Source: Paramacrobiotus metropolitanus
Taxonomy: Eukaryota; Tardigrada; Eutardigrada; Parachela; Macrobiotidae
Assembly: GCF_019649055.1 (NCBI RefSeq)
Contig: NW_026570288.1
Coordinates: 124,001-188,000, forward strand
DNA: 64,000 nt
Direction: 5' to 3'
In this document: piece after piece, positions 43,161 to 64,000 of the stretch
Numbering within the stretch: position 1 is the stretch's first letter
Layout of the letters: every line of letters begins with the position of its first letter
The notes under the pieces: generated by a model
Seen by the model: only the letters and a program-made list of their open reading frames with translations
What the model was told of the DNA's origin: nothing
Databases searched by the model: none
Made by a program: the position numbers and the translations under genes

Positions 43161-43356
43161 ACCTTCGCCACCCTCCTACCGACCGCGCTCGGCGTCCTTC
43201 TTCTCTTCCGCTCATGACTATCATTCGCGCTTCATTCGACCAAGGCAACAACAATTAGTAATTGCTAATCTGCATCCAGTTAAATTAACAAAATGTGTGA
43301 TAAAAACAGACTGTCATGTACCGGGTAAAGTTAACGTGAATTAAACAGCAGCAAAT

Positions 43357-43456
43357 TACAGTGGACTTCATAAATGTGGTTACACATATGACATAGCCAC
43401 CCGTATGCATAGCGCTATCGGCTTTAAGTGTAACCACATTTATGAAGTCCATTGTA
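43357..43456. mobile_element. Tc1/mariner-like MITE, about 96 bp with TA flanks
   Basis: CAGTGGACTTCATAAATGTG starts at 43359 and its near-exact reverse complement (CACATTTATGAAGTCCATTG) ends at 43454, with one mismatch. Both ends are flanked by TA, the target duplication of Tc1/mariner elements. The interior is too short to encode anything. Confidence 0.7.
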
Positions 43457-43743
43457 ACAGGTCGGGCTAAAGGCTAAAAAACACAACAAACATCCAGACA
43501 AGAGGTAGAGCAATCAATTACAAAAACTTAAGGCAGACAAATCATGGCACGCAGACCGCGCAATGAATAGTGTCGTGTTTCTGTCCGCGGAATTCCTCGT
43601 GCGAGATGTATCCATCCTGCCACGAAACGGTCGTACAGAACCATCGATTGTTTCCAAACCTCCCTGGATTCCATCAAGTGGAAAGATCTTAAGTGGACTA
43701 AACGTTTCTGCATACTGAACTACGGAACTACGTGAACTGAACT

Positions 43744-44367
43744 GATGGAACTACGTGGACATGATAAACTGATCTGCAGTCGGCAGTTGCAACTCGCTCA
43801 GCTCTGTTTTAATTATTCGGTAGACAAAAGGGGAAAATTCCATATTATCATCAATATATCATGCAGTATTGTGCAGTATTAACGCGTTATCGCAACATAG
43901 ACAAAGAACTATTACTACAATGCAGTTTGCGGGTTGTAGTATTTGGGTTCATTGATAGCGCATACTTTTTGATGACCGTACGTTATTGGCCAAACCTGAT
44001 TTATTTGGAGGCCTTTTCAGCTCGCCTCTGTGCTAAAAAGCCTGCAGGCCATTACCTACAGGTGGTTCAGTAATGTCTGATTCGTGGTCTTTTCTCCAGC
44101 AAAGTGATGCTGTATACTGATGCGCGAACACATGCGTTTGCTCTTCCTTATTCAGAGCGATGGGAATTGGGCAACATATCGTGTGAGTTTGTGCGTTGCG
44201 ACGGTGACCCACCATTTTGTCGACCGGCTTTAAGTAGAATGACACGATGCCGGCCCGTCACGTCCTCAATTTGAGCTAATACTTGGCTGAACAGTTTTAG
44301 TTTTCTTATGCATTCTCAGGTTTTCTTATTTTATAGTTTTACTTAATGTCGTGACGAGCGAGCTTTT
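43744..44367 (-). repeat. Right arm of the 0.63-kb inverted repeat
   Basis: Reverse-complement copy of 39353-39992, slightly shorter because of small indels. It lies just upstream of the transposase gene and closes the segment holding lectin gene 2, the folate-receptor-like pseudogene and a mariner-type MITE. High identity over the full arm indicates a recent inverted duplication, an inversion, or gene conversion. Confidence 0.88.
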
Positions 44368-44974
44368 TTCTTTTTGAGATATCACTATAAAAAAGGCTAC
44401 TTAATTAGCTTTTTAATGAATACTAGCACTTGTAGAACGATTCAGAGGAAAGTGCGCAGCGAATTCCCAAAGTTGTCATAAATATACGCATGCTATAAAC
44501 AATTACCTCCCGTTAAGAGCTTTTACTACGAAGGATTGATCGCTGTGCATCCTTAATTGCGCGAAGTGTCTCCGGGCAACGGTTTTTCTTGGAAATGTAA
44601 TTCGTTAATGGAAGTCCTAATTAATGGAATTTTAATTTGTTAAGGGATTATTTAACCGTAAATTGAACTAGTATAGGTTGTTTTTTTTTACCTTTCCTGA
44701 AATATTTATGGCCCCCCGGGGGGTCGGGGGCGTCTTCACTATAGTTAAGCGTAGTTTGAAATTTCGCTTTAAATCAATGGTAAACTAATTCTTGTCAATA
44801 AATTTCATATGTGCACTGGAGGCTGCTATCGCTTTTCCAGCAAATGAAAGTGTTGCCATGAAACAATAATAAAGGTCAGTCGGATATCACGAAATTATTG
44901 ACAGATTGATGTAGCATAAGTTCAGTTTATTGATGTCAACAATAATCAAAGCTACATTCAGCAAAAGATGAAAA
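44368..44974. other. Region upstream of the transposase gene; GC palindrome
   Basis: Contains a perfect CCCCCCGGGGGG palindrome at about 44711-44722 followed by TCGGGGGCG, which is striking in otherwise AT-rich sequence. If the transposase belongs to an intact element, its left terminal inverted repeat should lie here. I could not match any stretch to a candidate right end. Confidence 0.35.
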
Positions 44975-47525
44975 ATGTTGAAAGTCGGCGACACTTTTGA
45001 CGATTACGAAAGCGCTATAAATTCTTTAAAAGAGTACGAAAAAGCGACTTTCCAGTTATTCGTAAAAAGTCGAAGTTTTGAAAGGCTTTCAATAAATCAT
45101 CCGTGTTACAATGACTTAAAATTTAGCTCGATAAAGTTTGTATGTAAACATCATGGGAAATGGCGCAGTCATCGGAAAGACTATGCAGTTGAATGCAGGA
45201 AGGTTCAAACAACGGTAAAACTTGACTGTCCGGCATTTGTCAAGTTCAAGCTAATCAAGAATGTCGTCCACGCAGTAACCGTTGCTGGGGCATCGGATCA
45301 CAATCATGCAGTCGAAGAATCTGTGTGGAATTTTTATCCGGAAAACAGAAAACTGGCGGACGAAGAGAAAAAAGTGATAGATGGTCTTCTCAACTGTGGT
45401 GTCCAACGGGCGACTGTTTGCAAAAAAATAAATGAACAGTGTTGGAAGTCTGGTGTAAATGGCCAGTTGAGAACTAAAGATATTCATAATTATGCTGCAG
45501 TAACGCAAAGGAAAGTCAAAGGTAACAAACCGGAAGGGCAAATACTGGAAGAATATCTCCAAAAAGTTGTGGAAGAGAATCCCCATACCGACATCTTCAC
45601 AGTTACTCATCAAACAAATTCCACTGACCGGACTTTGGACATTCTGTACATTCAAACTGGTGAAATGAAGATTTTCTGCAAGCACGGTCAAGCTCTTTTC
45701 ATGGATAGCACCTACCGGCTCAATTGTGAGCATTTTTGTTTGTATTGGTAAGTCCCCTTCCACTTTGTAGTTGCACATACCAAAATACCATTGCCTTAAT
45801 TTGGAAATGTAGTACAGAGTGTACAGAGTTCGGGCACAATTTTGTAACTATTTCTGTAAACATAAAAAGTGGAAGTACTGTATGTGACCGTGTATGTGAC
45901 AGACCCAACATACCAGGTTCAGACTTTTCTCAAAAACTAATAATGGCAATGCAACTGGGTATTTACTCTTCTGGGTATTTACCTAAATGATAGAAACACG
46001 TAAAGTGTGCAGTAGTGTGAATTACAGGAACGGCGGCAATAGTAGAAGATTTCATTTTTATTTCAAACCATTGTATATAACTTTCGATTTTCTATTTCTA
46101 AGTTTGGCTACCCTTGTATGTTTCAGTATACTGGTGGAAGACGAAAACGGTTTCGGGCAACCTGTAGCGATGGCATTTCTACGCGATGAAAAGAAAAACA
46201 CGTTGGAAAGGCTGTTCGAAATATTCAAGGAAAGAAATAATGACAGTGTCGAGGGTATTCAATGTATCTTTGTGGATAAAGACTTTGCACAAATTGCCGC
46301 GCTGGAAAAATCGTTTCCTGCATCGCCTGTATTATTGTGTGCTTTTCACACCATGAAAGCTTGGAAGACAAAAATAGCAACGCAAAAACTGTCACAGACC
46401 GAGAAACAGGAGCTACTCGCTCAATTTAAGCGTGTGCTGCATGCCGACAGCATGAACCGGTTGGAGGAAGAAGAGCGCAAATTGGAGATACTCCTGCCAG
46501 ACGCAATGGCAGAATATTACTCAAAACACTGGAAGTCTAGGATAAACATGTGGGCATTTGCTTATCAAAAAAGTATTTTGGCTTTTGGTAACCGTACAAC
46601 AAATCGTATCGAACGCTTTTTCCTCATGGTTAAGTCAGCGTTTCGGAATACCGGAAGATCGGTGTGGACGCGCTACCATTTAAAAGATTGTGTGGAGATT
46701 ATTCTACGAGTAGTCTCGCATAAACTTGAAATTGCCAAGTACGAAGGATATGTGAACAAGGGAAAGGCCCTTGTGTTGCATGGTTTTCCTTCGATTCAGT
46801 ATGCCGAAAGCGTTGGGCGTTCGCTTACAAAAATTGCAGCCCTTATCGTGCAAAAGCAATTCATGCTAATGGGAGCCGAGACGTACGAAGTCTTGCCGAG
46901 TACTGCCGATGAGTGGAGTGTTACAAACACTACCAGGATAGAGCATCGTACATACGATCTAATACGAATGGACGAAAGGTATACGTGCTCGTGTTATACA
47001 AACTGCTCATTTGGTTTGCCTTGCCGCCATATTCTTTATTTACGAAAGAGCAATGGTGAGGACATATTTTCATTGAATGACGTTATAACTAAATGGCATC
47101 GCGGAAGTAATGCTTCTGAACTGGAACGTATCCCCGAAAAATTTCTTGACGCGGCGCTGGAAGGTGTGCCAGATGAGGTTCTGGAATGCGAGCGCACGGA
47201 AATTTCCAATCAAAACTTTCCGACAATTGGCAAGCGGTTCAGTGCAGCAAAGGATATATGCAACAGAATTGCTTCGATGGCTGCTAATTTTGGTGGTAAC
47301 CAGTTTAAGGAAGTACTTACCGTTTTAACTTCAGTAGAAGAATCGCTGACAAGCGGCTGCATACCTACTGTAAGAGGAAGTGACACCTCCAGTAAGTCTC
47401 CGCTGGCCTGTCCGTTGTTAGCGACTGGGGAATTAGTGCTTCGATCGAGCAACACTTCTAAACCAAAAGGTCGGCCAAATGAGGGAGGTCGGTTTAAAAA
47501 ATTTAACAAAAAGAACTTAAAGTGA
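44975..47525 (+). CDS. MULE-family transposase-like protein (FAR1/WRKY-like zinc finger, DDE core, SWIM finger), 2 exons, 723 aa
   Basis: Exon 1 (44975-45747, GTAAGT donor) joins exon 2 (46127-47525, TTTCAG acceptor) in frame (2172 nt). The N-terminus has a FAR1/WRKY-GCM1-like zinc finger: VCKHHGKWRSH, DCPAFVKF and the HNH of DHNHAV. The MULE catalytic core follows: Asp in ALFMDSTYRLN, Asp in FVDKDFAQIAAL, the CAFHTMKAW motif, and Glu in TTNRIERFFLMVK. A SWIM zinc finger closes the core (CSCYTNCSFGLPCRH). The architecture matches Mutator-like transposases and their domesticated ZSWIM1/3 relatives. The frame is intact with all expected acidic residues, so it is either an active element or a domesticated gene. 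I could not find terminal inverted repeats. Upstream is the right arm of an inverted repeat; downstream is a primase gene on the same strand. Confidence 0.82.
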
Positions 47526-48603
47526 CTGCAAAAAATTGTGAGTACTGCAATGTCGAGTAGATTGGATTCTGAATATTGTAATTTTCCCGTACTCTGGATA
47601 TTCCGAAGCTAAATTAACAATAAAACTACGTCAATTTTGCGCAAAAAAAGATTTGTTTATGTCGGCGCTGTTTGTTTACTGGAATGATAGTCGCTCAAAG
47701 TGGCCACCGTTAATTAAGAATTTTACGAAACGATTTTTTTCCGGTTGTTTTCTGTACTTAGTTCAGAATAACGAACTCTATACGAAATACGGGGAATTTT
47801 TAATGCTGGTACGTATGCATAGTACTTAGTGTGTACTAGTACGTAGTAAACAACATAAGCATTAATCAACATCACTTAAAGGAGGTTACAGTAAAAGTAT
47901 TTCATCAGTTCTTATGTTAATTTGTATTGCATTGCTTTTTTAAATCTAAACATGTGAAAGCTGTCCTTAAGGTTCCAGACTGCATTCACAAAAAAGGTGA
48001 CAAAAGTTTTCTGAGAACGGATTCGGAATTAGTGAGTCCGATTTACCTAATAAAAATAGTTTAAAAGCGAAAAGTTGATTCCCCCTTGCTTGAATACGAC
48101 TGCCCGTGCTTGGAACGGCGGGTCCATTTTACTTTACCACGTCTCGCTTTTTTAAAAGTTGACAAAGTTCTTAACTAATTACAAAACCTATTTTTTAAAA
48201 GTTGACAACGCTAGTATTTCACTTATGTTTAAAAAGCCAGTAAAACAAAAAAGGGAAAGAAAAACTCATTGGCGACGCGGGAAACGGAGTGTCTCATTAC
48301 TCGGAATATTGCCTTGTTACTCAACATATTGTCCCACTTTTCTGCCTTTGCGAGTAGTAATCGTAAGTTGGTATGTAAAATAAAAATTGGAGAACACAGT
48401 AATGTGGAAGAAAATAAAACATAGAAAACAGAATAAAAAAAAGGTATGAGAGTTGTCACACGAACGAAGAAGGGGCTACCCGAAGAAAATAAATGTAGCC
48501 CAAATCTAACGCAGTCAAAGTAATCAACCAAGTAACTGTTTTGCTGCGTATGAAAGTGTGTAATTAATATTACTTACAATACTGCACGATATAATGAGAA
48601 AAA
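47526..48603. other. Gap between transposase and PrimPol genes
   Basis: AT-rich, with a repeated TTTTTTAAAAGTTGACAA word at about 48150 and 48193. No ORF with protein character. It must hold the promoter of the PrimPol gene if that gene is expressed. Confidence 0.4.
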
Positions 48604-49641
48604 ATGGCAAAATGGTTCCTTAAACTTGACGAAGCTTTACAATACTGCGTGTCAAAGTGTCCCAACACGTTAAGAGTCTTCTCTTTTGAACAGTCTGAAT
48701 CGGGGTCACGAAAGTTTATTGTGGCTGAATGCGAGCAAATTTGGCGGCTTGTAAATGTTGATTATAAACAACGCCCGTATTTTTTTGAGGTGGTTCTAGA
48801 GAGTTGGAAACAAAAGTTATATTTTGACTTAGAATGGAAAATGCACTCAGTTTCTCCAGCGACAAATCTGATATCAAAATTTAGCAGTTTTGCTTTGGCT
48901 GAACTAAATACTGAAGAAATTATTGTTTTTGACTGCTCTCGAAATGAAAAGTGTAGTTTTCACGTGGTATTTCCGGGAGTCATTTTTGGCAATCTGAAGC
49001 ACCTTAAAGCAACTGTGGTAAAGATCGCGCAGAAATTCCATCAACTAGAAACGGTTCCTTTGGTTGATCTTACACCTTACACTAGGAACCAGCAATTCCG
49101 AATGTACCGATGCGCGAAATTTGGACAAAGTGCGGTTTTCGAAAAACATTCACTGACAAATGTCCACACTTCAAGCGAGTACAATTTTTTCCTTCTAACA
49201 TTGCTTAACACTGTGCACTGCCATGAAAAACTAAATGATAATTTCACACCCGTCTCTTTAGCGCGCAATAACGCTTACCCTGCCCGCCTGACTTTGACTT
49301 GTTCGGTTATCAAAAATTTGCTTAGCCGGTTTTTTGGTTTTACCTTAAGCAACACGTCTTTTTTCGCCAAAGTGGAGAAAGACATTGCTATTTTTTACGG
49401 CTCGAAGCTGACCTTCTGCAAAATTGTGAATCGCTTTCACCGCTCTAACAACGTATACTTTGTGCATGCCTTGGGATCATCGATTATGCAACAACGTTGC
49501 CACTCTGTCGCATGCAAAACTAGCAACTACCCAGAACTTAATGTGCTGCCTGCAGAAGCTGCCGCGCTCAGAGCACTAGTCGAAGGTATGCGATGTTGCC
49601 AAGAAACCTGTAAAAAATTTAACACGCGGCGAACCGGCTAG
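48604..49641 (+). CDS. PrimPol-type primase-polymerase (archaeo-eukaryotic primase with UL52-type zinc knuckle), 345 aa
   Basis: A single uninterrupted exon. All archaeo-eukaryotic primase motifs are visible: the metal-binding DxE in KLYFDLEWK (about residue 78), the SxH motif in CSFHVVFPG, and motif III in PYTRNQQFRMYRCAKFG. A C-terminal zinc knuckle of the PrimPol/UL52 type follows: Cys in FCKIVNRFHRSNNVYFVHAL, its His, then the Cys pair in QQRCHSVAC. Such enzymes start DNA chains de novo and can re-prime stalled forks. At 345 aa it is much shorter than vertebrate PrimPol (about 560), lacks introns and lacks an obvious acidic RPA-binding tail. A separate small acidic ORF follows at once. 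Its neighbours (transposase, RPA-like, DUF3987) suggest it belongs to a mobile element rather than being the host PRIMPOL, but that is inference. Confidence 0.85.
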   Translation: MAKWFLKLDEALQYCVSKCPNTLRVFSFEQSESGSRKFIVAECEQIWRLVNVDYKQRPYFFEVVLESWKQKLYFDLEWKMHSVSPATNLISKFSSFALAELNTEEIIVFDCSRNEKCSFHVVFPGVIFGNLKHLKATVVKIAQKFHQLETVPLVDLTPYTRNQQFRMYRCAKFGQSAVFEKHSLTNVHTSSEYNFFLLTLLNTVHCHEKLNDNFTPVSLARNNAYPARLTLTCSVIKNLLSRFFGFTLSNTSFFAKVEKDIAIFYGSKLTFCKIVNRFHRSNNVYFVHALGSSIMQQRCHSVACKTSNYPELNVLPAEAAALRALVEGMRCCQETCKKFNTRRTG

Positions 49642-49793
49642 AAGTGCAGGCTTTGCAAAGTCTATTTAGATTTGATGAATTTCGGAGTTTTGGTCAAAAG
49701 ACTTAAGTATCTATATATATTTAAATAAATCCAAGTTTCACATTTATCCAGTCACATTCACATTTACTTTTTTATTTATTTCTATTAGAAAAA

Positions 49794-50033
49794 ATGAATA
49801 CTGGAAAGGTTGTGAAAAAAACACGTGGTAATGGAAGAAACACCAAAGTCGTGCAGCTGGACACTTCTGATGAATGCGAAGACGAGCAATCAGCTGACCT
49901 TCCTGCGTTTACTATCACGAAAGTTACCGTGACTAAACCAAACCAAGAAGACGAACTGGACCATCTTGACAAAGCCTTCGCTGTTCCCGTTTTGCAGGCA
50001 AGTCCAGTGATGCAGAAAAAAACGGGATTATAA
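49794..50033 (+). CDS. Small acidic ORF downstream of PrimPol, 79 aa, unknown
   Basis: A 79-codon frame with a basic start (MNTGKVVKKTRGNGRNTKVV), then acidic patches (DTSDECEDEQSADL and QEDELDHLDKAF). No family recognised. Vertebrate PrimPol carries acidic RPA-binding motifs in its C-terminal tail, and this ORF could supply such a function separately or as a spliced last exon, but no clear splice sites join it to the primase frame. It may be spurious. Confidence 0.35.
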   Translation: MNTGKVVKKTRGNGRNTKVVQLDTSDECEDEQSADLPAFTITKVTVTKPNQEDELDHLDKAFAVPVLQASPVMQKKTGL

Positions 50034-50460
50034 AAACGAATTAATTTCCCTAATTAACTATTAATTAATTTTTTTATTAATTAACTAAATTGTTTATTTT
50101 CCTGACGTATAACTAGTCCTTAATATTACTCAACTAAAGCAAGTGTGGGAGAACGTTTGGTAATGTAGGTAAACGCGCGCGCATCCAAAATACTGCCTAT
50201 CGGGGCATCCGAGATAAAAATCTTCCCTCAGTATTAAGCGCTAACCTGCCTGTAACAGTAGTCACGTTACCGAGTAAAAAAATACTGCAACAGTGCAACC
50301 CATACTGCAACTAGCGCCTAAAGATTGGTTTGTCGTCTAAAAAGATCGGCATTTTTAATGTACACGCGCTTACGCCACCTAACATTCTCCCATTCTTACT
50401 TAGCTCAGCATTATAAAAAAAATTTAACGGAAAATTTATAATTTATTATAAGTAATATAC

Positions 50461-52000
50461 GGGGAAGGCTCCGCACACCACGTTTTGTTATTTTTCAATT
50501 TTTTTGAAAAAACCACCTAAATCTCCTAACACCACCAGGAGCGTAGTGCACACCACCAGAGTCTCTGCACACCACTATTTTGGAAGAAAATTAAGCAGTT
50601 GTTATTACGGGCGGAAAAACAATAGCTCTTTTCGTCTCGCGGTCTGGCTCCCCTTTTTTGATACCACTCGCTGGCCTCCGCTTCCGTTATAGTTAGCGAT
50701 TTTTTTCGGTTTTACTCGCTCGGCCGCCCTGCCAGGACGGTGTTTGAGTTTTTGCACACGCTTAGCTTCGAATGGTGTTATAATCCACTCCCTCAAGGTT
50801 TTTTCAGAAAAGGATCAATTTCACAAAAAAAGGTCAATCCTGTGGGTCAATTCCATTGAACAGCTCGTGCGCAAACGCTAAAGCGTAAAGGAGACAATCG
50901 ATTCCGTTTCCTTGGTTTTGGACAGCCTTGTGGCTAACCGTAATCTGCTTTTCCGGCAGTGACGTCCCATAAAGCAGCCATATTTCTTCTTTAACATGCC
51001 AGTTAAGCTCCATCGCCAAACTATCATACACCAGGTCACGCAACAGCAAACACATGGCATCCGTAATGTTCGGAGAAACGGTCTGGTTGTTTCGCACCCT
51101 GGCACTATCAACATCCAGCACACTTAGTCCATTAATAATGTATCGAACGACACGGTCACCCAAAGTGACATTTACGGTGGATGTGGACGCAGGCACCAAA
51201 GGGCCCGTTTGCGCCGCTGGTAATGTTTGTCTATTTTGGCTTGAGGGCGACGATGCTTCTCCAACACGCTCGTTAAATTGCGAGTGGGTTTTGTCTCCTT
51301 TCTGGACCACTGGTCGCCCATGTTTTCTGCCTGGCACCGGAAATGCCAAAGAGCCGGAAGCAGTGGACGAAGGAAGTTTATCGCCGCCGGTTTTTGCCTT
51401 TTCCGTACCATGAGCGTCCGCATTTCCCACCGGCTCCAGACCTTCAAGTCGTGTTACGAAGTCTTGCACAAGGTTCAGATACGCAGCGAGCTCAACGCGG
51501 AAGAGGCTTGGTGGCAGCTGTGCCAGCTTGCTTTCGGCAAGTTTGCTGACTTTTCGACCAGCATTCCAACGCTCCTGTTGTCCCATTTTTGCATTGTACG
51601 GCTCGTCGTCGTTTTCCTCTTCTATGCTCCCTATTTCGGTGACCTTTTCGATCAGTCCCTTAAAATTATGCGCAGTGTAACTCGTTTTTCTGTTCCAGCG
51701 GGCTAGACAATCCCGGGCGCCCGCTACTGGTCAGGAAGGACCTAAAATGTCTTGTTGTTTTTGAAAGTAATTACATAGCCCATAGTAGTCGTATATACGA
51801 CCGACTACTGCATATCTTCGAAACTACGAGTAAAATGTGGTGTCCCAAGACTACCGACGTTTCAAATATATGTAGTGGTGGCGTAAAAATGGTGGCCCGA
51901 GTCAAAACGTGGTGCGAATAGTGGTGTGCGCAGCCTGGTGGTGGTAAAAGGTGGTGTGCGGAGACTTTGGTGGTAAAACGTGATGTGTGCAGCTTTCTCC
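50461..52000. mobile_element. About 1.54-kb insert with inverted ends and GCACACCAC subterminal repeats
   Basis: The left end GGGGAAGGCTCCGCACACCACG (50461 onward) resembles the reverse complement of the right end (CGTGATGTGTGCAGCTTTCTCC, ending about 52000). The 9-mer GCACACCAC occurs at 50473, 50548 and 50567, and its reverse complement at 51921 and 51951, with a one-base variant near 51982. So the subterminal repeats face inward from both sides, as in hAT- or P-like transposon ends. A target-site duplication is not clear. The insert contains the Ulp1-like ORF on the minus strand and separates the PrimPol gene from the RPA-like gene. Confidence 0.6.
50834..51586 (-). CDS. Ulp1/C48-like cysteine protease remnant, 250 aa
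   Basis: A 250-codon minus-strand frame. The C-terminus carries VQNQGNGIDCLLYALAFAHE, which matches the catalytic-Cys region of Ulp1-like (C48) peptidases (Q-x-NGxDCGxFALAFA), here with Leu after the Cys instead of Gly. Upstream, LNWHVKEEIWLLYGTSLPE resembles the region around the catalytic His. The N-terminal 150 residues are low-complexity (Ser/Pro/Gly) with a short helical start. The frame stops soon after FNGIDPQD, so the last helices of a complete domain are missing and activity is doubtful. Ulp1-like proteases occur as cargo in several transposon groups, including plant Kaonashi-type MULEs. It lies within inverted ends of its own, so it may belong to a nested element rather than to the primase locus. 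Confidence 0.5.
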   Translation of the reverse strand: MGQQERWNAGRKVSKLAESKLAQLPPSLFRVELAAYLNLVQDFVTRLEGLEPVGNADAHGTEKAKTGGDKLPSSTASGSLAFPVPGRKHGRPVVQKGDKTHSQFNERVGEASSPSSQNRQTLPAAQTGPLVPASTSTVNVTLGDRVVRYIINGLSVLDVDSARVRNNQTVSPNITDAMCLLLRDLVYDSLAMELNWHVKEEIWLLYGTSLPEKQITVSHKAVQNQGNGIDCLLYALAFAHELFNGIDPQD

Positions 52001-52348
52001 ACAATATATACTATTTATTTAATTTTACAAGGCGATATTCGTCTCATATTTTGGTGAATATGCGCTGATTTTAACTATACTGTTTAATTCTGTTGTGGTT
52101 CGCGATTACAATTGAAATTATCAGGCCTAAGCAAATTACCCATGCAAATCGTGTACCGACCAATATAAAGCTCGAGTGCTTGTGTCCGTGATCGGTTTGT
52201 TTTTTTGAATTTTGGTTGCGACATAAAATACGTTTCAGAGTTCCTGAGAATTCAATAATTCTGCAATAAAGCGTTAAATAATAATAATTAATTTCTTGTT
52301 TTAAAGCATTTAATTAAATATGAAAAAACTCGTGTCTATTGCCATAAT

Positions 52349-53248
52349 TTGTTAAGGATGTTTTGCTTGGAAACGCCCCGCCAATGTTTCCGCTTATCAT
52401 CACAAACAAACGTGGAAGCAATACCGAGACTACCATTCTTGGACGTGACCGAATTCACGCGTCGTCCGGTAATTAGGCTTCTGGTCCGTGAGTGTATTAC
52501 AAAACTAACGTCTGATTTTTTAGCTTTCGTGTTGTCGAAAAAGGCAGTGAAAGCGATGCAGTCAATGAATTTGCCGACTGCGGTCAACATCACCAAATAT
52601 TCTTTGAACTCCGAGTACGAACGTGGCATGAACGATTCCCTTTAAAATTAAAATCTCCAATAACCTGTATAATTTCACAATTTTCAATTAACTTGTAGTG
52701 GCGCCATTCACATTGATGACTTGGTTCCAATAAAAACCGGCTGTACGATGGGAGACTACATTGCCTCCAGACTGCCTGTGCCACAGTTTGTGACTGTCCA
52801 GTCCGTTGGTTGTACCAAGGCAGTGAAGATGGATATCTTTGATTTGGACAAAGAGACAGATCGGTACGAAAAGCACACCATACGAACTCGCAATGTGTAC
52901 ACAAACGTGGTATCAACACAAACTTGTGCATACTGTATGTACAAAAACAAAAACTTGCATTTCAGAGCGGAGCTTGTGGTTCAGATCACTAATGTTGCGG
53001 TGAAACACAAATCGAAAGGCACAGGGCGCTGCCTCCTATTTGAAGCAACGGACGCAACTGGGAACATGAGTGGCCGCCTTTGGGATAACGTTGAAAAATT
53101 CGAAGATCTGCTACTAAATGGCGCGCATGTCTCTATCAAGTTTCCAAAAATCGCCTACGCAAAGACTGAATTTAATAAGCCCTACAGTTCGCCTTTTCAA
53201 TTAACCATCATTCGTGACCGCACTCAAATTACCACTATAAATAAGTGA
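52349..53248 (+). CDS. RPA1-like single-strand DNA-binding protein (OB fold), exon structure partly unresolved
   Basis: The secure part is 52721-53248, possibly from an acceptor at about 52698 (CTTGTAG, then GAIHIDDLVPIKTGC). It reads FRAELVVQITNVAVKHK, CLLFEATDATGNMSGRLWDN, KFEDLLLNGAHVSIKFPKI, then YSSPFQLTIIRDRTQI. This follows the RPA70 DNA-binding domain pattern: DATG strand, trailing KF---LLxGxxxxI, and the SPFxLTxxRDxxI end. A 98-codon frame at 52349-52645 (TEFTRRPVIRLLVRECITKL) just upstream may encode the N-terminal part, but the junction is not settled and the opposite strand is also open there. The protein would coat single-stranded DNA during replication. It lies between the PrimPol and DUF3987 genes on the same strand. 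Confidence 0.6.
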
Positions 53249-54934
53249 CCTTTCTGTTTTTCTTCAAAGCTGTTTTCAGTAATCGTTTTTCATTTATATT
53301 ATTATTGTTTCATAGTAACGCGTGACTAACGTTACACTTGACGTGACTTTTTCATTTGCTTAACAATTATACGAGTATATACCTTCTTTACTTTATTTTT
53401 TACTTTGTGACAACTGACTTCCTTTATTACCGACTTTGTGAGGTCTGATTTGCATTTATCGCTATTTGTTGCCTTTTTTTCGCATGATTATTATTTCTTG
53501 AAGCTTGAGTAACGTTAAACTCTAATTGACAGTAGCTAACGATTGATTAAACTTGTCTCAAAAGCAGTTTTGGTCAAAAAATTCAAACTAAATGTACATG
53601 AAATGTTCATTTTTCTGGAGGTTTGCAACATACGTAGTGCAATCCGAACTGAGGTACATATGTAGTAGTATACGTACCATTTTTCTGGTCTTTAAACAGC
53701 GCGGTCTTTATAAGGTTTTGCAGACGGTCGTGTTTTAACCATAGACTTACAGGTGCCTGCAAACTACTAGTTACATTTTTGCGCTTAGGCTTTTTCCACT
53801 TGAATTCCCCATCGTTTCCATGACGATTGTCGTCAAACATATGGTATTGAGTGTCCACAGTCTTGTGACATACTTTAAATTTGATGAGGCATCAAAACGA
53901 ATACAACACAACTATCTATATACCCGTCCCGTTACAAGCCGAGCACAGGTAAATATCGGACGACGACTTCTAGAAACTTGATAATATTTCGAGGATGTTT
54001 CTTACCGCATACTTATATACTGTCATAACACAAAGTACTAAATACGTTTTTTTAGTACAGTAAAACCTCTGTAATTCGAACACCAACGGTTAAAACAAAT
54101 TTGTTCAACGTAATATGCTACTGTTCAATATGCTACTGCTACTGTTCAATATTCGCAGTATCTCACGCAGTATATTAGACGCGCCGATTCCTGTCCGGGA
54201 GTATATCAGTACAAGCTTGTCCAATAATTTCTGCCGGTTCGAAACAACGAAATACACAAATTCGCGTATTACGCCAAACGTAGTGTAGTGGCAATCCTAT
54301 AGCGCGAACTTCGCGCTAAATATGTGCTATCTGTACCTTTACGACAGAAATTACCGGACAAGCTTGTACAGTTCGTTTTACTGCATAGTACGGACTGCAG
54401 GCATGTACGGACTGCCGACAAGCTTAGTGCTTAGTTAATGCTTACGCACAGTCGCACATTAATTTCAAGAGTAAGTTTGTTCTCCTTCACGTTCGCCAAA
54501 ATGGTGGGCATAAACTTAGAAGCAATTTCTTGCACTTATAAAAAACAGGAGGTTTCCAAAAGCAGTTTCTTGCACTTAACAAACCGTAACTGAACTGCAA
54601 TACTGCCTACTACAGAAATCACCAAAAATAAATACAATCACTAAAACGCGGAGGCTAAAGTGCAGCTAGTAATAATATCTTATAAATGGTATTGTCACAA
54701 TATTGTCATGTGACTTATTGGGATTACTTTATTACTCTACGGACAAAGTTTTTCACGACAGTACAGTTCACACAAAATGCTTATTGCTTAGTCAAGTCCG
54801 TCGCGCCATACCTGTAGGTACAGGGACCTTGCTAAGTAACCTTGATGTTCTCGCTAACTAGAAAACTTTAAACGTAGCCACGCTGTGACTTAAACGAGTA
54901 AAATTACCGAAACGGGTTTTGCATCCTCAAAAAA
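53249..54934. other. Gap between RPA-like and DUF3987-like genes; decayed repeats
   Basis: An 83-codon minus-strand frame (53858-53607; WKKPKRKNVTSSLQAPVSLW, then YVPQFGLHYVCC) is unrecognised. From 54057, ACAGTAAAACCTCTGTAATT recalls pogo/Tigger ends, and a partial mirror (CGTTTTACTG) lies at about 54373. Within it, ACAAGCTTGTCC-AATAATTTCTG at 54211 is mirrored at 54345-54370, and TAGCGCGAACTTCGCGCTA at 54300 is palindromic. Confidence 0.4.
54057..54385. mobile_element. Possible pogo/Tigger-like MITE remnant
   Basis: The left end TACAGTAAAACCTCTG matches the general look of pogo-type ends. A shorter reverse copy of CAGTAAAAC occurs at the right, and an internal inverted pair (GTACAAGCTTGTCC / GGACAAGCTTGTAC) supports a foldback structure. 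The terminal match is only about 9 bp and the right TA flank is missing, so this is tentative. Confidence 0.35.
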
Positions 54935-57900
54935 ATGAAACCATCTACCAGTAAATCTGGAAATGCTAACGTGACTGAAGAACAAGCGGCTCAAGTTTTC
55001 GAAAGAGCCCTACAGCTTGCATTTCATGACCTTACCGAAGTTGCTTCTCCCGAATTGTGCAAGGCTTTGTCCTGGTTTGCCGTTGACGGCAAAACAAAGG
55101 AATCTGCAGTGCTGATGTCTTTGATGGCCCTGACAGCCACCATTGCCAGTGGGAATCTTGCACTGAAACCGGACGAGGCAATAGACCATCACATCGTACC
55201 TGCTTTACTCATGCTAGCAATTGCAGCTCCAGGAAGCGGGAATTCACCGGCAATTGAGCGCTACTGCTTAGGACCGCTGTCTGTCATTGAGTCACTATTC
55301 CAAAAGAAATTCCACGACCGGCCTTCGAATAGCGCCAGTAAATATGCAGATAGTCATTAACGAGTTTGCTATAAAAGTTTAGGAACACACGTCTTTTGTA
55401 TGCTTGTTTAATTTGAAAAAAAATTTTACCGCTACTTTACATGCATTACCGTTAGCTAATTTGGCTATACCGCTGCTCTATACATTTCAGAGGAATATTT
55501 TTTATGCAAAACTATTTCTTTTTGTTTTATGGAATACATTTTAATCTCTTTATTTCTAACATAACAGTATGTAATTGTGCAGTGTGTAATACTAAAGCCA
55601 AAAATTATGCTAACTTGCAGGCTTTCGGAAATTAATAAAAGAAACCGATGGAAAAGTTTCGATCATTGGAGACGAGTTTTCCAAATTCTTACACGACTTG
55701 ACCCAGGGCCCAGCAGCGCAGGAGACAATTGCATTCATTAACACAGGCTGGAGTGGCGGGCGCCTCTGTGCAACCTACGCAAAAGCGTGCAGCGTGAAAA
55801 CGCAGGACTCCTGTGTTTCTTTATACGGCACAATACACCCTCCTACCCTAGCGAATACCATTCGAAATTGGACCGGTGGGGAAGGTTTGAAGGTGTGTAC
55901 CGCAATTCATAGGTGCCTGTAATGCAGTACGCTTATAATACAACACACCATTTCATTTTCTGCTGCTTCTGTAATCGCATATGAGAATTCTGATTACGAA
56001 CAGTTAGTATTCGTTTTTTGCTTAAAATACGTTTGGAAAAACTATTTCCACTGTTTGGAAAAACTCTGCCGCTCAAGAACTATTTCATGGCTACAGAGAA
56101 CGTTTTTCCAGATGTGTGATTGAAAAAATTTATTGTCCGCAAAACCAAGATAAAACTGCCTGGTTGTTAATTCCAGTCCAACACGGTACTATTATACCAC
56201 TGCCGCTCATGTTGGTACAGTTATCTTCAAAAATTACCATGAATCTCCCGTCGGCAAAGATAAACTTAACTACTATTTAAAAATCTGTCCGACTTCTTTT
56301 GCGTTTGAGGTTTTCATGCCGAACTAAAGCTAAAAAGTCATTCGACCCATCGAAATTGTTAGGCATTTGCCAAAAGAGAATCTTTCGAGGTGTTTGCCAA
56401 ACTCACAACTGGTCGGCGTGGTCGCTATCGACTGTACTCTCTGTGCCACCCGATTATAGTTAGGCTTGAGTAGGGTTATTATCGGTACGATTTTGCACCG
56501 GTACACCGGTGAAATTCGAGAAAATCACGGTGAAATATCGGGGAAGATTCGCGTAGTCCACTGGTGTAAGGAAAAAATCACAACGTCCATAACCGGTGAA
56601 AACAGCGGTTCACCGGTGTCAAAAATACTAGAAAAAAAAAGGAAAAATGTGTATAAAAAAACTTTTACGAATAACTTCTCGTATTTTTTTAGCTGTTTTC
56701 AACTACTTTTCAGCTGGTGCGCATATGATGAGTGAAGAAATTATTGTTTTGGCTGTCGTTTTTCGTTCCTTTTGGCGTTTTGGAGAAATCATCACTAGAG
56801 TCGGTGCGATAACAAAATCGCAAAATTAACACCATCGACTATGAAAGGCTTAATTTACGCACCAAATTGCACCGTTAACAACCCTAGGCTTGACTGACCG
56901 TAGTCATGTAAACAGAGAACTGGAAACTGGCCTCTTCTGCCTGATCGCCGCTGGCCTCTTCTGCCTGATCGCCGTATAGTCACCCGGTACCGTATTAAAA
57001 GTCTCGTGGTGCTAGTCACCCTATTCTTACTGTGCAATGGCAATAAAAATTTTTTCGAAGTGCATATTAATGCCGCTTTCCACGAAGTATTCAAGAAAAG
57101 CATTACATATGTAAATCACTCTTCCCTAATGATGAGCACGACTAGGCAGTGGCCATTTAGTGGAGGTTGCGAGCCAACCCAGATCATATTACGAGGTACT
57201 CGTGAGTTGTGGTCATATTAACGTAATTTCGATACATGTACTGTGCGCATGACGGCGATTGTCATGGAAACTAATAGTGCAGCACAATCACATTTCCAAT
57301 ATTGACTGACTTGTTCTGCTCTTATTTATTTAACAGGAACGCTGGCTATTCACAGTTATTGAAGATGACACAGGCAATGCGAGAAAATTCCGAATGCACA
57401 AACAATCCAATACATCACAACCTTACAACATTCAAGCTACCTTTACGGCCCTGTACAGATTTTTAACTGATCAACCCGAACTATTCGAAATATCATTGTC
57501 AGACGAAGCCCTCGAACGATATTTCCAACTTTCCGAAGAGATGGAGCAGTTAAAAAAAGACCGACATGTCAAAATTCGCGAAAAAAAGATGACCTCGTTT
57601 ACTCAGAGTTATGCGAAGCTGAAAGAAATGGTGTTAAAACTTGCTTTGATACTACATGTGCTAGAACGCGCTCTTCAAAGTTTCAATGAAACCGGAACCA
57701 TCGATATTCCACAGCAGATCTCCTTAAGTACTTTCGAACACGCCATCAAGTATGCGCAAACAAGTCAGCAGGTTTTGAAAATATTTTCCAACGAAAATGT
57801 CCCAACAACTGCAGAAGGTGACATGCTTCTGCTGTATGGCAACCTACTAACAACTCAACTGGTGTCGGAAGCAACACGCTACAGGAACTGCTACCCTTTT

Positions 57901-58428
57901 GCAGAAAATGAGAAATTCGTTCAGTTTGCAACAACACTTCAACAGCAAGGCTTAGGTCATCTTGAGAAAGTCCAGTACAAAAAAGGAAATGCTACCTTCA
58001 TGACATCTGTTGATGTTTTCTTCAAAGCACCGCCTTCAGATTCCATTGCTTCACTTCTTGCTACTCATAGCATTACATTAAATGACTATGCAGAAGCCTA
58101 CAACGCTAAGCACAAAATGCGACCATCAAAAAGGAAATACCTGAACCACCTCATACAGGCATTAGATGAATTTGATCCATACGTCACACGTGTCACCATA
58201 CTGCGGAATTCCGAAGAGGTGGAAGAACAACACGAAACCGAAGATGACCGTTTTCTTTGTAACGAAGCCGATACTGACAGCATCACCTCAGAAACGAAAA
58301 GCGACGGCTTGGAAACAATCATTCAGGATTTTGAAAAAGACGAGTTCCTTCCAACCTGCGATTTTGAAGATGTACATGAACGAAATACCGAACCAGCGAC
58401 GCCGGCGAAGAAAGCGAAGCTCGTGTGA
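54935..58428 (+). CDS. DUF3987-like primase/helicase-accessory protein, 3 exons, 588 aa
   Basis: Exons 54935-55337, 55621-55892 and 57337-58428 join in frame (1767 nt). The fold reads like the DUF3987 family of P-loop-type proteins found beside primases in phages and mobile elements. A helical start (LCKALSWFAVDGKTKESAVL) is followed by a Walker A position IAAPGSGNSPAIERYCLGPL and a Walker B-like VSIIGDEFSKFL in exon 2. Then come SLYGTIHPPTL and GGEGLKERWLFTVIEDD across the second intron, and a long helical C-terminal half ending in an acidic tail and KKAKLV. The Walker A lysine is replaced by Asn (GSGNS), so ATP binding may be impaired. Intron 2 (1.44 kb) contains a hAT-type MITE. I infer a role in replication of the proposed element together with PrimPol and the RPA-like protein. 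A host gene derived from a mobile element is the alternative. Confidence 0.7.
56471..56886. mobile_element. 416-bp hAT-type MITE in intron 2 of the DUF3987-like gene
   Basis: The left end TAGGGTTATTATCGGTACGA is mirrored by the right end, whose reverse complement reads TAGGGTTGTTAACGGTGCAA. The flanks are GGCTTGAG (56463-56470) and GGCTTGAC (56887-56894), an 8-bp target-site duplication with one mismatch, as expected for hAT elements. The interior has repeated ACCGGTGAAA and CACCGGTG words. No transposase is encoded. Confidence 0.8.
56924..56976. repeat. 24-bp direct repeat, two copies
   Basis: CTGGCCTCTTCTGCCTGATC followed by GCCG occurs twice in a row within the intron downstream of the hAT-type MITE. 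Confidence 0.75.
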
Positions 58429-58841: not shown

Positions 58842-61836
58842 TTGTATATAATCGATATGGGGACCAAAAAACGCTGCAGCTTATCTTCAGTGGCTTATTA
58901 CCATCTAAATATACAGGGCATTAATAATCGCAATTCGACCAAGCATAATTTGGTTGAAAGTATTCTTCTCTCTGATGATAACATTTCTAAAATTTTCTGT
59001 ATTTCGGAATCTCATCTTTCATCTTCGGATCCTGATCAATTATATGAAGTCCCTGGATATAAGCTGTTTCGTAAAGATCGCAGTAAAGACCACTGTAAAG
59101 TTCGCGGCGGAGGTCTCCTGCTGTATGTGCCCAATTATATCACCAGTAAACTCGTTGATAGCAAAGAAACGTATGCTCATTGTGAAAGTTGGTGGGTTTT
59201 ATTACAAATCGGTAAGCGAAAAGTATTGGTGGGTTTGATTTACCGTGCTCCGGATTCCAACGCTTCAGATACAAAATATTTGTTTGCGCATATCGATAAT
59301 CCTGTCTCGGTTCCCTGATTGTGATTACGTGCTTACGGGAGACTTGAATATCGATACTTCCATCAGTAGTACTCCGTACCACCGCTATTACCATGATCTG
59401 CAAACAAATTTTAATCTCGACGAAAAGGTGATAGGTTATACTCGCGTGGCCACCAGGAAAATGAAGAAGGATAACATGAATTCTATCAGCTGCACCAAAA
59501 TCGATACTATGCTGTGCTCCCCGCCTTCCCTGTATGCCAGTATGCCTGCTACCGATGTCAGTTTTTCGGATCACCGCCTGTGTCGTACTGTTGCACAGTA
59601 CAAAACTATAATTCCAGTTCACAAAACAATTCAATTTCGATTGTGGAGCCATACGGACGATAACAAGTTTTTGGATGAAATCGGCGAAACAGTGAAGCGC
59701 TACGAACAGTATGATGAACAACGTGACGTAAATGAAGTTGTGGAGAATTTCGTGCAAGACCTCTCAGCTGTGGTTGACAAATGTTTTCCTACACGCTCCC
59801 GACGTGTAAAGCGTGCATCTCCACCGTGGATGAACGATGATTTAAAAGCTATGCTAAAGATCAAAGACCAACTGTACGAAGAGAAATGCAGATCACGTGG
59901 GACACCGATGTACGATCAGCAAGCCTGAGAGTATAAGCGAGTGAAGCTAGAAGTGACCACGGCTATTTTAAATGCTAAAGAGGCGTTTTTCAAAGAAAAT
60001 CAGCGCAGGAGTGACGTAGTGTGGAAAGAAATCGGCAGAACAATGAAAAAAGATGCGAAACCTAGTGCGGTTGCAGTTAATTTAAATGCGATTAATCAAC
60101 ATTTCGTGACAATGGGCCAACACGGGGCTCCGCACGATCCCCCACAGCGACCGCCACTGGGGGACGATAGTAACGCTTTGTTTTCTAGGTTTGCGCATGT
60201 TGATACAGCAGTGGTGGCTGGGATACTTCATCGAATGGCCGCGAAGAAAAAAAGCCCCGGACCAAACGGGATGCCACCAAAACTGCTACAGAAAATCACG
60301 CCGCTCATCGCTCCAGTCCTTACGCAAATGGTGAATCAGTCGCTGAAGGAGGGAGTGTTTCCTTCCGTCTTCAAAAAAGCCGAAGTTTACCCCTTGCCAA
60401 AAAGTGTTTCCCCGCAGTGTGTTGATGACTTCCGCCCCATTTCGCTACTTTGTAATTTCTCGAAGGTGTTTGAGAAATGCGTCCAATTGCAGTTAGTGCG
60501 TTTTTTGAAAGAACAACAGATCTTATCCCCAAATCAGTCTGGATTCAGAGACGGTCATTCTTGTGAAACGCTATTGTTAAAAACAACGGAGAAATGGAAA
60601 AAGGCATTGGATAGCAGGAATGTGACAGCAGTGTGTTTTTTAGACCTCAAGAAAGCATTTGACAGTGTAAGCCATTCGCGACTACTGGACAAGATGAAGA
60701 AAATCGGAGCCGGGGATATCGTAGTAAAATGGCTACATAGTTACCTTACCGGCAGAGTCCAAAGAGTACGAGATGGGAAACGAACATCCGACTGGCTGCC
60801 ATTAACATCTGGCGTCCCGCAGGGCACAGTGCTAGGACCAATCCTGTTCACCATCTACATTAATGATGTACTTACTGTTAACGCAGAAGATTGTGAGGTT
60901 GATTGTTTTGCAGACGACACAATTGTCCATGCAACTGGAAAAACGAAAAGTATTGCTGCCGCTAAACTGAATGCTGGACTGGTGCGTGTCGGCCAGGTTA
61001 TGGAAGAAAATCTCTTGCACGTAAATGGAAAGAAATGCCAAGCCATTTACTTATGTTCTGACCGAAACAAACAACCGGATCCGGAAGTCGTCATCAACGG
61101 GTCGGTTGTCAGCATTGCAAAATGTGTACGGTATCTCGGCGTTGAGATCGATAACCACTTGAAGTGGAGTGAACAGTTCAGAAAGGTGCAACGGAAGGGG
61201 AATTTCGGCATTGCCATGATTAAGCGAGCACAACAAGGGCTCAGCATGTCACAGCGCAAAGGTCTTTACCACGCTTGCTTTGGATGCCATATCGGACACC
61301 AGTCGCCGGTATGGTCTGCAGCGTCTTCGACTGAGCGCGACAAGCTGGACGGACTGCAACGTAAAGCTCTGAAAACCATCAGTGATTACAAGATGCCGGT
61401 TACTCCGGAACTGTATCAGAAGTTGGGTATTCCTCACATATTCGACCGATGGCGTCAGAGCGATGCGGTGTGGTTGTTCAAGTTCTGGAACAGAAATCAG
61501 TTCTCACTTCCGGCCTACCTCCTGGACATGATCCAAGTAAAAGATAACACCGCGCACTACAACTTGCGGAAGCCGGCCCGGATCGATGTTACGCGGGCAA
61601 AGAAAGTTATCGGAGGGTCGACTATGGAAATGCGACTAAAGCGTCTTCTTGATAAAATTCTTGCTGTTATCCTAAAATTCTCGAAGCTAGTTCTGTACCT
61701 TCTTTTAAATTTCTACTCAGATCTGTTAATCTCTCCTAAATGTTTTGTTAACAGAAAATTGTTTTGTTCGACCAGACTTGAAGTCCCTTGGGGGTTGTCT
61801 GCTCTTGTGCCGTAATAATAATAATAATAATAATAT
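58842..61836 (+). mobile_element. Disabled non-LTR retrotransposon (CR1/Jockey-like LINE) with (TAA)n tail
   Basis: The apurinic-type endonuclease comes first: HLNIQGINN, ISESHLSSSD, LIYRAPDSN, TGDLNID and SFSDHRL. A reverse transcriptase follows with KKSPGPNGMPPKLL, VDDFRPISLLCNFSKVFEK, CFLDLKKAFDSVSHSRLL, SGVPQGTVLGPILFTIYIND and the catalytic FADDT. The 3' end is a short TAA microsatellite (61813-61834), typical of CR1/L2/Jockey-group elements. The element is broken: the frame shifts near 59300-59320 inside the endonuclease, a TGA follows MYDQQA near 59927, and no ORF1 is seen, so it is probably 5' truncated as well. The stretch from 59941 to 61815 is one open frame of 624 codons containing the RT. 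It lies on the same strand as, and next to, the DUF3987-like gene. Confidence 0.85.
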
Positions 61837-63000
61837 GATCCTAAGTAACATTAGCCAGTACGATGACCAGGTGTGCTCGTCTCTAGTTTCCCTCTGCTAA
61901 ACAATGCCGCGATGCGCACTATAACCAGCCGCCACAATTGACCAATTTAGGTGTGTACCGGGCATTATGTGCCGGCATGGAACAGATAATCATGACACAA
62001 TCAGTCGACCCGATCTTCGGTGTCCCCTTCTCAAAGTGTCCCGCAGCGGACACTTTTCCGCCTGACTGACCAGTAAACACGGTCAGGCCTGGACTCGAAA
62101 CAACGTTCGCTGGATCCGGAATAAATCGACACTTTGGACACGTCGAAAAAATAGGAGACATTGGCCTTTCCACACTTACAACCAAAAACACTGCCTGCTG
62201 TTTACTTATTTTACTGCTGTTTGCTGCTCCGCTCCGCTTGCCTAATAAAATAATTTACAGTATATGCTGTATAAATAACTTACAGTATATTTTGCCCATT
62301 AAAATAATATACAGTATATGCTGCCAGGAAGGTTTGTGTATATTTACAAAATAATTATTAGCTAGGTATAATTATTTGCCTATTAAATAATTTTGTATCA
62401 ATAGAAATGAGTTTAAATTTCTGCTGCCAAGAAACATTTGCATTTACTTAAAAATAATTATTCGCTTTATTAATTTGCTCATTAAAATTGTCTGTAAGTA
62501 CTCGTAGAAACAGCCTACATTTAATCCTGGCCTTTCTTTAAATAGTCATTAATAAAACTACATTTAATCCTCGCCTTTCTTTAAATAGTCATTCATAAAA
62601 TGATCGTATTATAGTTCCGTTTTTTTCTTTAAGGTTTGATTCAGACGTTTATTCCCTTTTAAAAGGTTTCAAGTTTTTAATAAGTAGGAATAGGTTTTTT
62701 GTAAATACTATAATGCACTAATATACTGCACTGCTATATTAATTAGTAAGTACGAGTATGTTACAAATAGCTGTTTATCTGTAAGATAGACATGTTACGT
62801 AATATCAGAAGGCCACCATGCTCCACCATAGGCTAAAACAGTAGGTTACTGTACCACCATTACAATGGTAGCCGAAGCCTTCACTCTATGGCCTAAAGAA
62901 CATAAAAAGCATGGACGATGTGAAACCGAGCGTCATCATAATAATGACCTTATAAAACCTTTGATATGAACCTCAACAACCTAACCATAATAATATTTTA
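61837..63000. other. Intergenic; short tandem duplications
   Basis: Two copies of a unit of about 46 bp (CTACATTTAATCCT, then CCTTTCTTTAAATAGTCATT) lie at 62513-62603. ACAGTATATGCTG-type words recur at 62255-62325. No gene seen. Confidence 0.5.
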
Positions 63001-63001
63001 G

Positions 63002-63343
63002 TGACGTAACTTAAGTAGGCGGGGCTGTCACACTGTCACCAAAATTCGACCACAAAAGGAAAATAATAATTTTTAAATAAATTTAAAAAATTATTATTTT
63101 AATGACGTAACTGAAGTAGGCGGGGCTGTCACACTGTCACCAAAATTCGACCACAAAAGGAAAATAATAATTTTTAAATAAATTTAAAAAATTATTATTT
63201 TAATGACGTAACTTAAGTAGGCGGGGCTGTCACACTGTCACCAAAATTCGACCACAAAAGGAAAATAATAATTCTTAAATAAATTTAAAAAATTATTATT
63301 TTAATGACGTAACTGAAGTAGGCGGGGCTGTCACACTGTGACA
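63002..63343. repeat. 101-bp tandem repeat, about 3.4 copies
   Basis: TGACGTAACTTAAGTAGGCG starts at 63002, 63103, 63204 and 63305, giving a strict 101-bp period. Each unit has a CRE/ATF-like TGACGTAA followed by GGCGGGGC, then CACACTGTCACC, then an AT-rich half (AAATAAATTTAAAAAATTAT). Copies differ by only a few bases (CTTAAG/CTGAAG alternating), so the array is young. The last copy breaks off after CACACTGTGACAG. Confidence 0.92.
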
Positions 63344-64000
63344 GCTGGCGAACAAAGGCTCACGATAGTGAGAGAAGGCTTTATTGTGGATAGCAATAAA
63401 GTACAGAGAACCAAAAACACAAAGGCTCGATGTGAGCTGTGGAATGAAAATCACCGAATGTCAGCTAGTGAATGAAAATGAACGGCACATCGAGCCGAAA
63501 GCATGGGAAAAAGCCTAATGCGGCACTGGGCAGATCCAACACGAGCGAACGAACGCTGATAGGACGAGATGTGGAAAGGGGGCGTGGCTCCGCCTACATC
63601 GAGGCCGATGATTGGCCGAGACGAAAGGCTGGGCGGAAAGCTGCCTGAGTCGAGGCCGATCTAGCGCTCGACAGCGAGTGCGACTCGGTGTGAGTCAGCA
63701 CACCGGAAGCGGGAGACTGTCGCTGGCTGCCTACTCGTAGGCTGCCATAGCGACTGGCCCAACATGCCTCTGGGCGGGAGTCCGAGCCCCTGCGAAGGAC
63801 CGGCCTCATACCGCTCAGTGCCCGCTCCGCACACGACCCTATTGGGGTCGGTGGCTGCGCCTCGGGGGTGTCCGATGACGAAGGTCTCTCGGTGCCGCGT
63901 TCTCCTCCGGACCCGTGGTGGCGATACAACTCACGGCCGAAATCCGAAGGTCGGTCGGTGGTGTTGTTGGACCGGTGTAGGCATCTGTTGGTCGTGTCCG
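63344..64000. other. GC-rich block with nested hairpins; possible repeat element end
   Basis: Composition changes abruptly from AT-rich to GC-rich. Hairpins are dense: CTCACGATAGTGAG, CTTTATTG-tggatag-CAATAAAG, and GGCTCGATGTG (63424) mirrored by CACATCGAGCC at 63485-63496. A 111-codon minus-strand frame (63929-63594) is Ser/Arg-rich and unrecognised. It may be the edge of a larger transposable element or LTR extending beyond the window. Confidence 0.4.

Follow-up and report, generated by a model that had tools for sequence, protein, structure and literature searches.

Can a cut-and-paste DNA transposon of an animal carry the means to copy its own DNA? Such transposons are thought to gain copies via host replication and repair. 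The question is raised by a 64,000-nucleotide stretch of the genome of the tardigrade Paramacrobiotus metropolitanus (contig C68, positions 124001-188000; hereafter, the window). In this stretch, an initial annotation made from the letters of the DNA had recognized a MULE-type transposase, a PrimPol with catalytic motifs, an RPA1-like OB-fold protein and a DUF3987-like protein, and had proposed that these were parts of one element. Analysis of the window and searches of the genome (169.8 Mb in 533 contigs) indicate that one transposon of the MULE superfamily holds all four genes, and suggest, with a probability of roughly 0.55, that this transposon copies itself with the replication module that it carries. 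The module is found, in addition, alongside a second type of mobile element that is unrelated to the first, a sign that these elements may copy themselves and not only cut and paste.

The interval 44975..58428, originally put forward as the element, proved to be its gene-bearing core, whereas the element itself starts at 44562 and continues past the right edge of the window. Its ends, which had been reported as not found, are now both located. The element opens with CGAAG... at 44562 and closes with ...CTTGAGC at C68:220827; the right end lies there because an insertion of the long terminal repeat (LTR) type splits the right-hand array of the element. A perfect 9-bp target-site duplication (TSD) is present in both flanks, and the inverted repeats are short and imperfect, with ~33 aligned bases. 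The inverted match of the left terminus to the right end of a copy in contig C91 scored 42, whereas the best of 100 shuffles scored 29. The length of the element is 18.8 kb up to the LTR-type insertion, a figure that counts several smaller nested inserts too, and ~285 bp more past the insertion. The terminal features are:

44553..44561, unstranded: left target-site duplication TTAATTGCG; the right copy, C68:220828-220836, is outside the window
44562..44738, plus strand: left terminal region, CGAAGTGTCTCCGGGC..., in which the right end recurs in inverted form, short and imperfect
62994..63338, plus strand: right subterminal array, a tandem repeat of 3.4 copies of a 101-bp unit (97%), with an AT-rich palindrome inside

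All four genes lie between these borders, on the same strand. The proposal that they are parts of one element is upheld by the matching ends and the TSD as well as by three results described below, namely, the borders of the C91 copy, the gene order in a distant relative in C139, and the recurrence of the genes with another transposase. We consider it highly probable that the anatomy is that of a single mobile element holding all four genes. Arrays of the 101-bp type are also found near the right ends of relatives, including those without a PrimPol match; the units hold a 41-base near-palindrome that appears to resemble origin iterons or binding sites.

The genes of the window copy are:

44975..45747, plus strand: MULE transposase exon 1, ZSWIM3_N/FAR1-like N-terminus (Pfam; frame; GT-AG intron)
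46127..47525, plus strand: MULE transposase exon 2, RNaseH-like/MULE domain and weak SWIM finger (Pfam; open frame)
48604..49641, plus strand: PrimPol (archaeo-eukaryotic primase-polymerase), 345 aa, single exon (Pfam; human PRIMPOL; C91 copy)
49794..50011, plus strand: probable first exon of the RPA-like gene, with the exon end estimated (C139 at the equivalent place, E 6e-6; C91, 89%)
52673..53248, plus strand: C-terminal part of the RPA1-like OB-fold protein (profile match to RPA1/RPA70 structures; C139 relative, 31-40%)
54935..55337, plus strand: DUF3987 exon 1 (Walker A is GSGNS here, GSGKS in C139 and C74)
55621..55892, plus strand: DUF3987 exon 2, acidic Walker B-like motif (below the Pfam cut-off; not found in C139)
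57337..58428, plus strand: DUF3987 exon 3 (Pfam 30 bits, cut-off 27; C139 relative, 41%)

All four assignments of the initial annotation were confirmed, the third of them at the level of a profile. The MULE transposase consists of two open reading frames (ORFs) that, spliced over one GT-AG intron, form an open frame of 723 aa. Pfam detects MULE (45.1 bits; cut-off 27.6) and ZSWIM1-3 RNaseH-like (66.7 bits) domains in 45987-47522 and ZSWIM3_N (31.5 bits; cut-off 27.8) in 44975-45748; the candidates for the catalytic D, D and E, picked by eye, are in MDSTYR, VDKDF and NRIER. PrimPol matches the Herpes_UL52 zinc domain (22.5 bits; cut-off 21) and, in a phmmer search, structures of human PRIMPOL (E 3e-10). 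What we take, by eye, to be the PrimPol motifs, D75/E77, S118/H120, D155 and a C-H-C-C zinc motif, are all present, and S118, H120 and D155 are unchanged across a 7-row alignment.

By itself, the RPA-like sequence yielded weak OB-fold matches (Pfam tRNA_anti-codon, E 0.02) and no relevant match among solved structures. An OB profile built from four sequences (window, C139, C59 and C32) retrieved yeast RPA1 (1ynx) with E 3.2e-7, and nine of the 10 top chains bore RPA or replication factor A names; the window protein is thus predicted, by the profile only, to have the RPA1-type OB fold. The three exons of DUF3987, joined over two GT-AG introns, make an open frame of 588 aa, in which exon 3 exceeds the Pfam cut-off and exon 1, like exon 2, is below it. 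Single-sequence fold prediction for the DUF3987 protein P0003 was uninformative (mean predicted local distance difference test score 34), and its sequence had no relevant match among solved structures.

The C91 copy has both borders, the MULE, PrimPol and the first RPA exon in common with the window element; the remainder is deleted. The alignment runs from window position 44561 through the MULE, which is broken by other DNA, and PrimPol to 51096, jumps to 61998 and goes on to the right-hand array. The PrimPols of the two copies are 92% identical, and the C91 MULE has indels. The ratio of replacement to silent substitution rates (dN/dS) between the window and C91, which takes in neutral time after insertion, is 0.43 for PrimPol and 0.45 and 0.26 for two MULE pieces; in the pooled comparison, replacement changes are depleted (Fisher p 0.0004). 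The element in C139 is a distant relative that has all four genes in the order and on the strand of the window (MULE, PrimPol, first RPA exon, later RPA exons, DUF3987 exon 1, DUF3987 exon 3), with amino-acid identity of 31-49% by piece. The union of the MULE with the module appears to be old because order and strand agree in the window and C139 though half of the residues differ.

Genes lying alone in syntenic single-copy positions in relatives had been named at the outset as evidence that would speak against a common element; in the host genome, lone single-copy genes are not the rule. The genome search detected PrimPol at 10 loci and DUF3987 at 11, with both genes within 10 kb of each other at nine; PrimPol occurs without DUF3987 in C91, and DUF3987 without PrimPol in C7 and C40. 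A chance neighbourhood of the genes was rejected because nine of the 10 PrimPol loci have DUF3987 within that distance.

Seven of the PrimPol loci lack the MULE. In one of these, C74, an open-frame transposase of the IS1595/ISXO2 type (68.6 bits) is transcribed away from DUF3987 and PrimPol. The genome search with this transposase gave 26 matches, and an IS1595-type match lies within 4 kb of the module at all seven of the non-MULE PrimPol loci; the same search gave no IS1595-type match in C68, C91 or C139. The elements are:

C59:342056-350548: IS1595-type element
C65:780043-788628: IS1595-type element
C154:50039-58506: IS1595-type element
C94:542998-553399: IS1595-type element
C32:806444-814341: IS1595-type element
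C74:355655-361094: IS1595-type element
C81:117121-122545: IS1595-type element

Five of the seven loci (C59, C65, C154, C94 and C32) also encode a deoxynucleoside kinase, an enzyme of deoxynucleoside triphosphate supply. The sole other match to this kinase in the genome, in C5, is 40-47% identical and is probably the host gene. An OB-fold/RPA exon adjoins PrimPol in C59, C94, C154 and C65 and is found within the annotated C32 protein P0005 as well; in C74, a stretch of 25 residues matches the RPA portion of this protein. C59 is 99.4-100% identical to C65, C94 and C154 over ~5.9-6.5 kb of aligned DNA within a span of ~7 kb (99.0% for one duplicated piece in C94). The four copies have the border GGCATCAG in common, and flanks differ among the three of the four loci that were read. 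Because near-identical copies have different flanks, this family, judged by its sequences, has moved recently.

In the PrimPol tree, which has a midpoint root, three outgroup rows and a C81 row that is 32% filled, the PrimPols of the elements group together (100/99), and three other PrimPols (P0001, P0006 and P0007) fall outside. This group splits into a MULE-type side (100/99) and an IS1595-type side (91/92, below the starred level), a topology that fits a single module paired with two transposases. A wider protein search found one relative with the PrimPol query and five proteins with the PrimPol profile, of which the single one with a species name is from P. metropolitanus; the DUF3987 profile found three proteins, the one in the window and two others that bear the name P. 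metropolitanus.

Two relics bear on how the module and the MULE came together. A-type RPA relics in C41 (locus L034, C41:986835-989975) and C31 (locus L035, C31:1226012-1229188, in which DUF3987 exon 1 directly follows RPA) lie within ~2.3 kb of IS1595 relics, and it is possible that the two loci represent intermediates between both types of elements. Because these RPA relics adjoin IS1595 relics, there is a hint that the module reached the MULE from IS1595-type elements. The same proximity, along with the fact that the module on IS1595-type elements is identical in kind, could be read as a sign that a separate module-bearing element, for example, of the IS1595 type, landed within a MULE and that its transposase was then lost; in that case the MULE and the module would never have worked as one unit. 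Such an insertion may account for the origin of the union, but we regard a composite that never worked together as very unlikely: the three MULE-type loci have no IS1595 match, the gene order and strand common to the window and C139 persist across their divergence, and that order is unlike the one in the IS1595-type loci.

If the four genes do work together, as the reading of a self-copying MULE-superfamily transposon holds, the MULE transposase would cut and join the ends of the element; DUF3987, a predicted replicative ATPase, would unwind its DNA; the RPA-like protein would coat single strands; and PrimPol would prime synthesis and perhaps extend the products as well. An excised or gapped intermediate would then be copied before or during re-insertion, so that the copy number would rise by transposition, with no wait for host replication. 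That the module replicates the DNA of the element is something we infer from what is known of the protein families: PRIMPOL primes and extends DNA, and RPA binds single strands. Primase-linked DUF3987 domains are predicted to be replicative helicases (PMC5862659). Taken more broadly, PrimPol, the RPA-like protein and DUF3987, with deoxynucleoside kinase as an option, may constitute a replication cassette that is portable among the DNA transposons of animals. Joined to DDE transposases of two unrelated kinds, the MULE and the IS1595 type, it would make cut-and-paste elements self-replicating, a primase-based class parallel to Polintons; to this generalization we give even odds.

Several observations weigh against self-copying. 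Among the ORFs scanned, which were a subset, there was no separate DNA polymerase and no family B DNA polymerase (PolB) match. This fits as well a plain cut-and-paste transposon in which the module serves repair: it would re-prime synthesis and close gaps where forks stall or at the donor or target site, and the donor copy would thereby be restored; indeed, re-priming of stalled forks by human PRIMPOL together with RPA is well established. The dedicated helicase-like ATPase and, at five loci, the deoxynucleoside kinase favour bulk synthesis, without being decisive, and we consider a role limited to repair unlikely, if worth keeping in mind. The scan of the same ORFs also bears on the notion that the element is what is left of a DNA virus that had integrated and relied on a MULE-type transposase. 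The element PrimPols show weak similarity to two models of viral primases, Herpes_UL52 and AEP_C962R, but no viral structural domain was detected in this subset of ORFs, profile scans of viral contigs produced no relative, and the ends and TSD are of the MULE type, so that a viral origin seems barely credible.

Other points on this side concern the condition of individual copies. The Walker A motif of the window DUF3987 lacks the lysine (GSGNS, compared with GSGKS or GGGKS in C139, C74, C32, C59 and C7), and with this motif the window copy is probably not fully competent. In C59, C65, C94 and C154, as assembled, the reading frame of PrimPol or that of the first DUF3987 exon is broken, for which sequencing error in short runs is possible. 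C139 is damaged by one stop in PrimPol and one in RPA; the second exon of DUF3987 and the putative middle part of RPA were not found in it, nor was its right end detected by inverted match, TSD or tandem arrays in the stretch examined. A third MULE piece has a dN/dS of 1.3 between the window and C91, and C91 lacks a TSD.

The distribution of the ends across the genome adds to this list. The left terminus had at least 28 matches at no fewer than 20 loci, mostly starting on one base, and the C91 right end at least 97, largely array units. All 11 left ends that were read open with CGAAGTGTCTC, and the 12 right ends read are CTTGAGC in 10 cases and CATGAGC in two; this is a family with fixed ends. 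Both flanks could be compared in four elements; besides C91, these are the window element and C153, with perfect 9-bp TSDs, and C41, with a near match. Among the matches listed, 15 of the 20 left-end loci are accompanied, at a distance of 2.8-52 kb and on the same strand, by a match to the right end or to the array; the pairing was done by eye, and the inverted duplication at C41:1147-1161k was counted as two. Only C68 and C91 among these 15 paired-end elements have a PrimPol match. The other 13 are shorter, non-autonomous or MULE-only, and the C41 one has a MULE remnant (ZSWIM1-3, 30.3 bits). With PrimPol matched in only two of the 15, the ends do not need the module in cis in order to move, or did not need it when they moved in the past. 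The duplication itself (C41:1146922-1161200) is a 6.7-kb inverted one, 98.5% identical, with a short relative of the element in each arm.

Borders that enclose only one of the genes were to speak against a common element according to the initial annotation; the C91 borders enclose more than one, whereas most of the paired-end elements, as just described, have no PrimPol match. The scarcity of PrimPol among elements with these ends would be expected if the replication genes were passengers without a role in movement, taken up in the manner of Pack-MULEs, and MULEs do capture host sequence (PMC6431247, PMC6446971). The genes are, however, whole and open rather than fragmentary; the set is retained in C139 at 31-49% identity and is paired with a second type of transposase; and PrimPol, with a dN/dS below 1, belongs to a group of element PrimPols apart from the three others. 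We therefore find the passenger explanation rather improbable, and continue to favour a transposon that copies itself.

If this reading is true, an element that supplies its own primase, a protein that binds single strands and a helicase-like ATPase would represent a further route beside rolling-circle transposition and protein-primed self-synthesis, and self-replication of a DDE transposon would become a testable question in an animal. The module on two types of transposases and the four near-identical recent copies offer material for the test.

Several other inserts lie within the element:

50461..52002 (about), unstranded: nested insert bounded by inverted ends; it occupies part of an RPA-like gene intron and does not belong to the module
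58842..61815, plus strand: LINE-like endonuclease/reverse-transcriptase ORFs in several frames, nested (RVT_1, 128 bits on 59929-61812)
63339..64000, unstranded: start of the LTR-type insertion, TG...CA, with the duplication ACACTG; it splits the element and ends at C68:220536

The first of these is the second insert with terminal inverted repeats that had been suspected in the middle of the gene cluster, and it is real; copies of it are present in C91 and, at a different place, in C139. It contains a minus-strand ORF with a Ulp1-like motif, seen by eye, at its end and no Pfam match. The LINE-like ORFs fall within the stretch that is absent from C91. The LTR-type insertion, ~33 kb in length, splits the right array, and the element resumes after C68:220536 and extends to C68:220827; the direct repeats of the insertion are 95% identical over 428 bp. 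This length is unusual for an insertion of the LTR type, which is perhaps nested; the comparison covered its ends. Immediately to the left of the transposon, at 41739-44217 of the window, lies a separate element of ~2.5 kb with 65-base inverted ends (89%).

Searches of open-licence papers listed none, by title or abstract, that describes an element of this kind. Among its nearest known counterparts are the Mutator-like elements (MULE/MuDR; Phantom and Ghost in animals), which are alike in the MULE-domain, putatively DDE, transposase, the weak SWIM finger, the 9-bp TSD and the short inverted ends. In the MULE superfamily, TSDs are 8-11 bp long and terminal inverted repeats 14-500 bp, with none in non-TIR MULEs, and subterminal minisatellites are given for some MULE groups (PMC6446971). 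The window element belongs to this superfamily by its transposase domain, TSD length and terminal inverted repeats. It differs from the MULEs described there in its larger size and in the presence of PrimPol, the RPA-like protein and DUF3987: the extra ORFs listed in a survey of MULEs across eukaryotes include mudrB, MutB, VanB/VanC, OTU, SET and others, and the word primase is absent from its text (PMC6446971).

The C74-type loci resemble Merlin/IS1595-type transposons in their IS1595/ISXO2-type transposase, which is lacking in C68, C91 and C139; the text of a survey of eukaryotic Merlin elements mentions neither primase nor DUF (PMC8101967). Polintons (Mavericks) are alike in that an integrase or transposase and an own DNA-replication gene occur within an animal transposon. 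They combine an RVE integrase with a protein-primed family B polymerase, whereas here PrimPol, RPA and DUF3987 accompany a MULE, and the ORF subset scanned held no PolB. The protein-primed polymerase of Polintons is described in a review of giant transposons, which also points out that a nucleic-acid-primed polymerase and a primase, on gaining an integrase or recombinase, could yield novel elements (PMC6431247). Helitrons and Teratorn are, likewise, eukaryotic transposons with replication proteins: some Helitrons encode RPA, and Teratorn, a piggyBac joined to a herpesvirus, encodes the herpesviral primase (PMC6431247). Theirs, however, are a rolling-circle Rep/helicase or a whole herpesvirus genome, and the combination of MULE, PrimPol and DUF3987 appears in neither passage. 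Finally, bacterial and archaeal mobile elements in which PrimPol is fused to or lies beside DUF3987 are alike in having, on mobile DNA, a replication module that consists of an archaeo-eukaryotic primase and a DUF3987 ATPase; they differ in that most rely on tyrosine or serine integrases and their primases belong to the PrimPol-PV1 supergroup (PMC5862659), whereas the primase of the window element resembles eukaryotic PRIMPOL instead.

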